Shown here piece after piece: positions 15,030 to 46,173 of a stretch of DNA of 64,000 nt. Origin of the DNA: Asaia prunellae JCM 25354 (GTDB taxonomy: Bacteria; Pseudomonadota; Alphaproteobacteria; Acetobacterales; Acetobacteraceae). The stretch covers positions 124,001 through 188,000 of the forward strand of contig NZ_BAJV01000006.1 of assembly GCF_000613885.1 (NCBI RefSeq), read 5' to 3'. Both the position numbers and the translations under genes were made by a program. The notes under the pieces were generated by a model that did no database searches, had not been told where the DNA came from, and saw nothing but the letters and a program-made list of their open reading frames with translations. Every line of letters starts with the position of its first letter. Within the stretch, counting starts at the first letter, position 1.

Positions 15030-15090
15030 TTCGTATCCGGCGATTCGAAACGGGACTCGGACGAGAATCGAGCATAACTCTACAGAATGC

Positions 15091-44244: not shown

Positions 44245-44270
44245 TACCGGTTTTTCATACGGTATTTCGG

Positions 44271-44300
44271 AAGGGGATCGCAGTGACGCGGTCCCCTTTC
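44271..44300 (+). terminator. Terminator after the CsbD-like gene
   Basis: AAGGGGA (44271-44277) pairs with TCCCCTT (44292-44298), with further inner pairing and a short T-rich tail (TTTCTTCG). It isolates the rnhB-ccrM unit from the stress gene. Confidence 0.75.
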
Positions 44301-44330
44301 TTCGTATTGAGGAAAGAAAAACGGATCAGG

Positions 44331-44397
44331 GAGTCGTGCCAGGGGTTTACAGCTCGATTCGAGTGATTCAAAAGCGATTCGTGTGACTGTGCGACTC
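44331..44397. promoter_or_regulatory. Cluster of five GANTC sites upstream of rnhB-ccrM
   Basis: GANTC, the CcrM recognition sequence, occurs at 44331 (GAGTC), 44356, 44365 and 44376 (GATTC) and 44393 (GACTC), that is five times in 67 bases; about 0.2-0.3 would be expected by chance at this base composition. The last site is 46 bases before the rnhB start. In Caulobacter, methylation of GANTC sites in the ccrM promoter represses it. A similar feedback here is inferred. Confidence 0.8.
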
Positions 44398-44443
44398 GGA
44401 CAGTCTGGTTCATTTTCTTTCGTCAAGGATCCTGCGGCCGCCC

Positions 44444-45085
44444 ATGCCAGACTATGCTCTTGAATTTGCCAATGGGGCACCATTGAGGAGTGTAGTCGGG
44501 CTCGATGAGGTCGGGCGCGGCCCTCTTGCCGGACCGGTCATCGCAGCGGCGCTGCTTTTCATGACGCCGCCTGCCGAAGATCTGGCGTCCATGATTGATG
44601 ATTCGAAAAAACTGACAGCCAGACGACGCGACGCGGCCTACAGGGCCCTGATGCAAACCGCTTCGGTGCGTATCGGTCTCGGTGCGGCTTCGGTAGCAGA
44701 AATCGGGACCATCAATATAGGCAAGGCGTGTCACCTCGCCATGCAACGCGCTTTGCACCATCTTGGCATGATGCCGGATTGTGCTCTGGTTGATGGTAAC
44801 CGTCTTCCCGATCTGGAATGCCCTGCCATTGCTGTCGTGGGGGGCGATCGTAAAAGTCTGTCGATTGCCGGTGCGTCGATCATTGCCAAGGTTACACGTG
44901 ACCGGCTGATGGCGCGTCTTTCTGAACGGCACAATGCCTATGGCTGGGAAAAGAATGCCGGTTACGGCACGGCCCTGCACATGGCCGGTCTGCAAAAGGC
45001 CGGAGTTACTCCCCATCATCGACGCGAATTCGCGCCCATACGCGCCCATCTCGCTTGTGCAGTTCAACCGGCCGGAGCTATCTAA
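44444..45085 (+). CDS. rnhB: Ribonuclease HII
   Basis: 213 residues. RNase HII cuts RNA at single ribonucleotides embedded in DNA and at RNA-DNA hybrids. The catalytic acidic residues sit in VVGLDEVGRGPLAGPVIAAA (DE pair near residues 19-20), LVDGNRLP and GASIIAKVTRDR. A close ribosome-binding site is weak (AAGGA lies about 15 bases upstream). The stop overlaps the ccrM start by one base (TAATG), an arrangement found in several alphaproteobacteria. A GANTC cluster lies just upstream. Confidence 0.96.
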   Translation: MPDYALEFANGAPLRSVVGLDEVGRGPLAGPVIAAALLFMTPPAEDLASMIDDSKKLTARRRDAAYRALMQTASVRIGLGAASVAEIGTINIGKACHLAMQRALHHLGMMPDCALVDGNRLPDLECPAIAVVGGDRKSLSIAGASIIAKVTRDRLMARLSERHNAYGWEKNAGYGTALHMAGLQKAGVTPHHRREFAPIRAHLACAVQPAGAI

Positions 45086-46173
45086 TGCAGGATTTTCCCC
45101 TTGATCAGATCCTGTGCGGTGAATGCATCGACACGATGCGTGGTCTGCCTGATGCCAGCATCGACTGCATCTTTGCCGATCCCCCGTATAATCTCCAGCT
45201 GCGCGGTGAATTGCGTCGCCCTGATGAAAGTGTTGTCGATGGGGTCGATGATGCGTGGGACAAATTCGCCGATTACGCCACCTATGATAATTTCACGCGT
45301 GAATGGCTGGCCGAGGCGCGTCGTCTCCTGACCAAGGACGGCACAATCTGGGTGATCGGCTCCTATCATAATGTATTCCGGCTTGGCGCGATCATGCAGG
45401 ATCTCGGATTCTGGATCCTGAATGACATTATCTGGCGCAAGGCCAATCCGATGCCGAATTTTCGAGGGCGCCGTTTTACCAATGCGCATGAAACACTGAT
45501 CTGGGCGGCCCGTGGCCCTGAGAGCAAATATCGCTTCAATTACCAGGCCATGAAGGCGCTCAATGATGACATGCAGATGCGCAGTGACTGGTATCTGCCG
45601 CTCTGCACAGGCAATGAGCGCCTGCGCAATGCGCATGGCCTCAAACTGCATCCTACCCAGAAGCCAGAAAGCCTGCTTCATCGGGTACTGATTGCCTCCA
45701 CCGTGGTAGATGATGTTGTTCTTGATCCGTTCTCAGGAAGTGGCACAACAGCGGCCATGGCCAAACGCCTTGGCAGGCGCTTCATCGGTATTGAACGCCA
45801 CCCCGATTATATCGAAGCGGCTCGCGCTCGTGTCGAGGCTGAAGTGCGCCTTCCTGATGATCAGCTTGCCATTACCCCTGCCAAGCGGGAAATGCCGCGC
45901 ATTCCATTTGGCAGTTTTGTCGAACAGGGTGCGCTTCCTGCAGGCACTGAGCTCTTTGATCGTCAGCGGCGCGTCAGTGCGACAGTCATGCCCGATGGCA
46001 GTCTTGTTTCGGGTATCCATCGTGGTTCCATCCATAAAATGGGTGCAATCCTGACCAATGCCCCTTCCTGTAATGGCTGGACGTTCTGGTATTTCGAGCG
46101 AAAGGGTGAGGTGCTTCAGATCGATATTCTGCGCACTGAGCAGGCTCAGGCACCACTTCGCAATGTCGGGTAG
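45085..46173 (+). CDS. ccrM: Cell-cycle regulated GANTC adenine methyltransferase
   Basis: 362 residues from ATG 45085. A beta-class DNA N6-adenine methyltransferase: DCIFADPPYNLQLRGEL (catalytic DPPY) comes first, then the target-recognition region, then the cofactor motif LDPFSGSGTTAAMAKRLGRR. The C-terminal domain (about residues 270-355, from LFDRQRRVSATVMPDGSLVS) is the RAMA-type extension characteristic of CcrM and absent from simple restriction partners. There is no restriction endonuclease gene nearby. It is the second gene of an rnhB-ccrM operon and probably regulates itself through the GANTC cluster. Confidence 0.95.
   Translation: MQDFPLDQILCGECIDTMRGLPDASIDCIFADPPYNLQLRGELRRPDESVVDGVDDAWDKFADYATYDNFTREWLAEARRLLTKDGTIWVIGSYHNVFRLGAIMQDLGFWILNDIIWRKANPMPNFRGRRFTNAHETLIWAARGPESKYRFNYQAMKALNDDMQMRSDWYLPLCTGNERLRNAHGLKLHPTQKPESLLHRVLIASTVVDDVVLDPFSGSGTTAAMAKRLGRRFIGIERHPDYIEAARARVEAEVRLPDDQLAITPAKREMPRIPFGSFVEQGALPAGTELFDRQRRVSATVMPDGSLVSGIHRGSIHKMGAILTNAPSCNGWTFWYFERKGEVLQIDILRTEQAQAPLRNVG

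Follow-up and report, generated by a model that had tools for sequence, protein, structure and literature searches.

The rnhB–ccrM locus

CcrM is a conserved cell-cycle methyltransferase, whose timing is known mainly from Caulobacter, where it is CtrA-driven. In the window, by which we mean the whole 64,000-nucleotide stretch of Asaia prunellae JCM 25354 that was analysed, ccrM lies directly behind rnhB, and the end of rnhB and the ATG of ccrM (45085) overlap by one base. The ccrM product contains N6_N4_Mtase and RAMA domains, and its comparison with Caulobacter CcrM (6pbd) matched residues 6–352 with an E value of 2.7e-143, the DPPYNLQL motif being common to both. The full-length similarity to Caulobacter CcrM, the DPPY motif and the C-terminal domain identify it as a CcrM ortholog; its score with the NCBIfam model NF050803 was 612.9, below the cut-off of 830. 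It is 96% identical to the CcrM proteins of Asaia bogorensis GD-01 and A. astilbis. In one single-contig 3.20 Mb genome of the genus, rnhB lies ∼494 kb from dnaA, which serves here as a landmark and not as the origin. The features of the region are as follows, with offsets counted from the first base of the predicted −35.

44269–44300, plus strand: terminator-like hairpin 3′ of an upstream CsbD-like gene; left bound of the promoter region
44331–44335, unstranded: GANTC site 1 (GAGTC), 5′ of the predicted −35; in relatives a distal site stands at no fixed distance, or is missing
44346–44351, plus strand: predicted −35, TTTACA, 5/6 to TTGACA, counted back 19 bases from site 3
44356–44360, unstranded: GANTC site 2 (cGATTCg), predicted spacer, offset 10; kept in Asaia and Swaminathania; fits YGAKTCK
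44365–44369, unstranded: GANTC site 3 (tGATTCa), predicted spacer, offset 19; the predicted −10 begins at its C; no fit to YGAKTCK
44369–44374, plus strand: predicted −10, CAAAAG, degenerate, lacking the T of CANNNT; 17-base spacer from the −35
44376–44380, unstranded: GANTC site 4 (cGATTCg), offset 30, close to where transcription is predicted to start; fits YGAKTCK
44393–44397, unstranded: GANTC site 5 (cGACTCg), offset 47, predicted leader; position common to Asaia and Swaminathania; fits YGAKTCK
44444–45085, plus strand: rnhB, ribonuclease HII (PF01351)
45085–46173, plus strand: ccrM, GANTC adenine methyltransferase with RAMA domain (6pbd CcrMI, E 2.7e-143)

Density of GANTC sites upstream of rnhB

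The initial annotation had reported five GANTC sites in 67 bases upstream of rnhB–ccrM, and all five positions (starts at 44331, 44356, 44365, 44376 and 44393) are exact. It had also put the array at about twenty times the density expected by chance. This is a fair figure, as five sites in 67 bp amount to ∼35 times the density of the window and ∼15 times the expectation from shuffled sequence. The window as a whole has 137 GANTC sites compared with 328 ± 18 in dinucleotide shuffles, so that GANTC is avoided, down to ∼42% of the dinucleotide expectation. This depletion hints, only indirectly, that the ccrM product may methylate GANTC in this organism.

A cluster comparable to the array arose in 25 of 20000 simulations when 137 sites were placed uniformly, and in 1750 of 20000 when 328 were placed; dinucleotide shuffles of the intergenic stretch reached five sites in 45 of 5000. 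Within an 864 kb sample of the same genome (the window plus 800 kb, ∼27% of the genome, holding 1850 GANTC sites), the array was the only cluster with at least four GANTC starts within 63 bp, and ten other clusters had three. The tightest three-site cluster of this sample, the ccrM array aside, is found at 15042–15069 of the window, where three GANTC sites in 28 bp, followed by TTGACT, stand between rpoC and a ribosomal-protein region (gene names by eye from ORF translations). As a genome-wide operator the spacing of the array could be rejected, GANTC-N4-GANTC-N6-GANTC occurring once only in the whole genome.

A predicted promoter at the array

The placement of the −35 in the window was copied from the ccrM promoters of other families, that is, 19 bases before site 3. 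Two of the sites (offsets 10 and 19) then fall inside the 17-base −35/−10 spacer, between boxes that are weak and predicted only. A consensus scan called no promoter in the array region, and the TTGAC tandem pattern described below gave no match at the ccrM promoter of the window; it gave two elsewhere in this genome, compared with five for the reversed control. The weak Asaia boxes fit a putative promoter that needs help, and they are also the main weakness of the promoter assignment.

The array is conserved in acetic acid bacteria

Arrays of at least three sites in 150 bp were found before rnhB in 28 of the 30 acetic acid bacterial loci of a named collection. The 28 comprise Asaia, Swaminathania, Gluconobacter, Brytella, Acidomonas, Acetobacter, Gluconacetobacter, Komagataeibacter, Bombella and one uncultured MAG; they were picked by hand from 80 loci after the site table had been viewed, and Commensalibacter, with one site before rnhB in both of its loci (L027, L046), was left out of the 28-locus count. 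Their 150 bp stretches hold between 3 and 7 sites, with a mean of 4.3 against the 0.20 given by local density, and no other 70 bp of the locus is denser than the stretch before rnhB, which leads outright in 24 of the 28 and ties in 4. Related sequences such as these are not independent counts. A further 43 loci of the family, chosen for the most similar RnhB and with duplicates removed, gave at least three sites in 32, two in 6 and none in 5; in basal Acetobacteraceae the count for the 160 bp before rnhB ranges from 0 to 2. Two MAG contigs titled Asaia bogorensis (L031 and L059, with 1 and 0 sites) were classed as basal; their CcrM is only 70–71% identical to that of the window, and they look misnamed.

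All five sites of the array are present as annotated, but site 44331 is not position-conserved and lies upstream of the predicted promoter, whereas the spacing of 44356/44365/44376/44393 (4, 6 and 12 bases between) is kept in Asaia and Swaminathania. Acetobacter, Gluconacetobacter and Komagataeibacter have the array without the 9–19–30 spacing. For acetic acid bacteria in general the −35 was set by counting back 19 bases from TGANTCA, an anchor missing from 3 of the 28 representatives, and a site at offset 19 is therefore present by construction. What the anchor does not force is that the first two bases of the −35 are TT in 22 of the 25 anchored representatives. A site lies at offset 9 or 10 in 20 of these 25, and at offset 30 in 17 and 29 in 2. 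The best −10 among acetic acid bacteria is that of Bombella, CAGAAT.

The gap between rnhB and ccrM is at most 23 bases in the 28 loci, 14 of which show the one-base overlap. The placement ahead of rnhB, singled out in the initial annotation, is true here but general in acetic acid bacteria, where the gap is closed or short. Longer gaps occur in relatives, with 29 bases in L096 and 76 in both L108 and L109. These last two have one or two sites in the gap plus two upstream of rnhB, and perhaps represent an intermediate between the gap and pre-rnhB arrangements. In basal Acetobacteraceae the gaps are mostly 42 to 152 bases, with few sites either there or before rnhB, and a TTGAC- or TTGCC-type promoter was seen in the gap of 2 of 33 and upstream of rnhB in 1 of 33.

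GANTC sites in the rnhB–ccrM gap of other families

We compared the same region in 50 other alphaproteobacterial families, one genome each, all outside the family of the window. These came from 60 first-set loci of the class, mostly the highest-scoring CcrM matches, after removal of L141, which belongs to the window's own family, and of nine loci (L159, L165, L166, L173, L177, L182, L193, L195 and L196) that lacked a same-strand rnhB or a located ccrM start, or whose gap fell below 30 bp. Of these nine, L177 has 4 sites before ccrM and L196 has 3, and CtrA-like boxes occur in L195.

Counts before rnhB (19 sites in 7953 bp, taking 160 bp per locus) gave the impression that other families have almost no arrays. 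This was overturned by the rnhB–ccrM gap, which holds 129 sites in 6405 bp, or 20.1/kb, compared with 103 sites in 30676 bp, or 3.36/kb, inside rnhB. With sites between rnhB and ccrM and sparse before rnhB, it appears that the sites follow the start of the ccrM unit. At least three gap sites were present in 25 of the 50 families and none in 4, so although the array is larger than the two sites of Caulobacter, as had been pointed out, having more than two is not special. Conservation in relatives had been named as a check, and it brought no refutation: arrays recur before rnhB in 28 of 30 acetic acid loci, and 39 of the 50 other families have at least two gap sites. Most simply, the array would be part of the ccrM promoter and would have shifted together with it once rnhB became part of the unit, the direction of the move being judged from the distribution of sites.

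A shared arrangement of sites in the promoter spacer

The gap sites of the other families are also regularly placed. Adjacent sites are 9–12 bp apart in 32 of 83 cases compared with 9.8 ± 2.8 in simulations, none of 5000 being as high. TTGAC is often followed by one GANTC at offset 7–10 and a second at 19, abutting the −10 box, and offset 19 is the modal position, with 20 sites at exactly 19. TTGAC with GANTC at spacer positions was found in 34 of the 50 gaps. Of the 50 gaps, 21 contained the tandem pattern, against 0 of 50 control stretches (the rnhB body plus 160 bp); for the one-site form the counts were 30 and 1, respectively. When 35 of the TTGAC boxes were aligned, offset 24 was A in 83% and offset 28 was T in 89%, which is what a −10 box 17 bases beyond the −35 would show; the boxes had been chosen without reference to either column.

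A held-out set was made up of 32 of the remaining 35 genomes (G262, G287 and G363 were left out), mostly with more divergent CcrM. The architecture was present in 10 of the 32, with both sites in 5, and absent in 22, compared with 0 of 32 control stretches; the criteria differ slightly from those behind the 34 of 50. A24 and T28 occurred together in 7 of the 10 held-out boxes, and the site density was 9.0/kb in the last 250 bp against 2.5/kb farther up. Of 133 whole genomes, 87 contain the tandem pattern, and by hand count at least 31 among the matches listed lie directly before ccrM.

The tandem matches also include a second promoter of this kind, with TTGAC and two GANTC sites; in 9 of 10 loci (L202–L210, from alphaproteobacterial genomes) it precedes a septum gene resembling DivIC/FtsB (PF04977). 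The ten were chosen for similar look, and the distance from TTGAC to the start codon is 29–40 bp. L213, the best DivIC match of the window's genome, is without tandem sites. At L201 (G302:C1:1896161) a septum-type TTGAC–GANTC promoter is followed by a short ORF with no Pfam match, which by eye resembles the start of a transposase and is perhaps an insertion. In the literature searched we found no paper joining GcrA, CcrM and ftsB.

GcrA, CtrA and the context of the sites

GcrA is a sigma-70 cofactor that binds methylated GANTC. The genome encodes a gcrA (G000:C36:30739-31398) with PF07750 over its cut-off; with NCBIfam NF050816 it scored 87.1, short of the cut-off of 280, and it also matches solved structures of Caulobacter GcrA in their N- and C-terminal parts. 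There are 0 GANTC sites within 1.3 kb upstream of this gene, and an autoregulated gcrA, as in Agrobacterium, was rejected on that count.

An extended GcrA motif, YGAKTCK, has been described (PMC7987155), and it fits three of the five sites in the window. In the arrays of acetic acid bacteria it fits 65 of 121 sites, compared with 50 of 262 elsewhere in the loci and 386 of 1849 in the sample of the window's own genome, though Fisher values overstate this enrichment, the sites being related by descent. CGANTCG likewise makes up 51 of 121 array sites and 16 of 262 elsewhere. For YGAKTCK no clear enrichment was seen in the gaps of other families (41 of 129 versus 32 of 122).

CtrA control of the array promoter was considered and rejected. 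TTAA does not occur in 44301–44443, hence there is no CtrA box (TTAA-N7-TTAA) there, and none with up to one mismatch (N6–8) was found in the 160 bp of the 28 acetic acid loci; without such a box the promoter of the window is not classed as Caulobacter-type. In other families a CtrA-like box with up to one mismatch is present in 7 of 50 gaps. A CtrA ortholog is encoded in this genome (311 bits, below the model cut-off of 350). Of nine genomes of the genus, this one included, seven encode one scoring over 310 bits, the other two having only partial or weak matches. ChpT (PF10090) was above cut-off in 0 of these 9 genomes, and CtrA may thus be phosphorylated by another route.

A proposed model for control of ccrM by its own methylation

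Taken together, we favour, at a probability of roughly 0.55, a reading in which the array serves the rnhB–ccrM operon as both promoter and operator: a sigma-70 promoter under negative feedback by CcrM methylation, reset by replication, with GcrA as the likely reader. The sites, their conservation, the spacer architecture, the lack of a CtrA-like box and the gcrA gene are read from the sequence; from them we infer the start point, the methylation, GcrA binding, the sign of control and the coupling to the fork. The promoter (−35 at 44346–44351, −10 at 44369–44374) would have CcrM sites at four places, two within the spacer, a third close to the start and the fourth in the leader. Passage of the fork would leave all array sites hemimethylated together, and the promoter would fire. 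The CcrM produced would then remethylate the array, and full methylation would lower transcription. GcrA would stay compact while the DNA is hemimethylated and, once methylation is full, extend across the promoter. The initial annotation had likewise proposed a methylation-sensing switch. The conserved arrays, and the two sites in the predicted spacer, where a switch would be expected, speak for it, but neither having more than two sites nor the place before rnhB is special to this genome.

The sign of control in this model leans on two published promoters. On fully methylated ctrA P1, GcrA is reported to cover −35 to +7, and a short stretch when the DNA is hemimethylated, with the suggestion that the extended cover may hold polymerase back (PMC3667746). 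The Agrobacterium gcrA promoter, with 6 GANTC sites, is described as weaker when methylated, even in Escherichia coli (PMC11514494). It is on these two that negative feedback is favoured. The opposite sign is nevertheless suggested by several GcrA promoters that are reported to be active only with their own GANTC sites intact (PMC3667746). A live alternative, if a rather unlikely one, is that on the same promoter methylated sites recruit GcrA and activate, CcrM sustaining its own expression in a positive loop. Mutation of GANTC is reported to cut the activity of the mipZ, podJ, flaY and pleC promoters by 60–80% (PMC3667746), and Caulobacter starts with GANTC between −10 and −35 are reported to be activated at 40–60 min (PMC4287350). 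Set against this, Caulobacter ccrM is described as being expressed from the hemimethylated state (PMC2217572, PMC10073500), and a positive loop would require another brake.

Also a live alternative, though an unlikely one, is that no reader is involved at all, m6A beside the −10 and in the spacer by itself altering sigma-70 contact or DNA melting. The modal site does abut the −10, the lowering of the Agrobacterium gcrA promoter by methylation extends to E. coli (PMC11514494), and there is no clear class-wide bias in GcrA context. The context bias in acetic acid bacteria (CGANTCG and YGAKTCK) and the 9–12 bp phasing, however, suggest a protein that reads the sites. That the sites govern rnhB, or local chromosome behaviour such as sequestration or a hypomethylated zone, rather than ccrM dosage, would suit an array lying before rnhB and not before ccrM in this clade; with the sites of other families between rnhB and ccrM, and sparse before rnhB, this is most improbable. 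A chance or compositional cluster, for which the 1750 of 20000 simulations with the shuffle expectation of 328 sites might be cited, can be given hardly any weight when the array is the only such cluster in 864 kb, recurs in 28 of 30 acetic acid loci and has a counterpart in other families. Equally little credit is due to a structured leader RNA that contains GANTC by coincidence: a short hairpin is predicted around site 5 in the window and in L054, but none of the 4 sequences folded was more stable than its shuffles (z 0.13 to 1.26).

Looking beyond acetic acid bacteria, we advance tentatively, as something that could well prove wrong, that ccrM in many Alphaproteobacteria is under one ancestral non-CtrA promoter, with TTGAC, helically phased spacer GANTC sites and a methylation gauge read by GcrA. 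In acetic acid bacteria this promoter would have moved ahead of rnhB and grown to a three- or four-site ladder (offsets 9–10, 19 and 30; about one turn). If that were true, CcrM dosage would be a cooperative, CtrA-independent counter of fork passage.

Relation to known systems

The array of the window is best read as a variant of the known Caulobacter ccrM feedback. The Caulobacter crescentus ccrM promoter has two GANTC sites and is reported to respond to hemimethylation (PMC2217572, PMC10073500), so that in both organisms GANTC sites lie at the ccrM transcription unit and, in Caulobacter, expression is tied to the hemimethylated state. Compared by site number, Caulobacter has two, with activation by CtrA, whereas here there are five (four of them conserved), no CtrA-like box, and rnhB in the unit. 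There is likeness too to the GcrA-dependent sigma-70 promoters ctrA P1, mipZ and podJ, which have GANTC at or between −35 and −10, and GcrA is encoded here. ctrA P1 is described with one site and mipZ with two juxtaposed; the window has a pair in the predicted spacer, a third site close to the predicted start and a fourth in the predicted leader. The Agrobacterium tumefaciens gcrA promoter is similarly a GANTC-rich promoter (6 in 250 bp) of a GcrA/CcrM circuit gene that is less active when methylated (PMC11514494), although it drives gcrA and not ccrM. A synthetic CcrM memory circuit also places a CcrM-encoding operon under methylation-dependent control (PMC5458116), but through an engineered zinc-finger repressor, the array here being native. 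The literature searched, with subscription papers mostly outside it, gave no description of the cross-family spacer architecture or of the acetic acid array.

One comparative study, working from GANTC counts in 500 bp windows, is reported to have been unable to infer methylation control from them (PMC2877005). The architecture described here is position-specific, and predicts that ccrM reads its own methylation via the sites in its promoter spacer; point mutations in laboratory strains of acetic acid bacteria could thereby put the autoregulation of CcrM to the test. The presence of CcrM target sites on the predicted promoter of its own operon, recurring in relatives, suggests that CcrM may sense its own marks to set its production.
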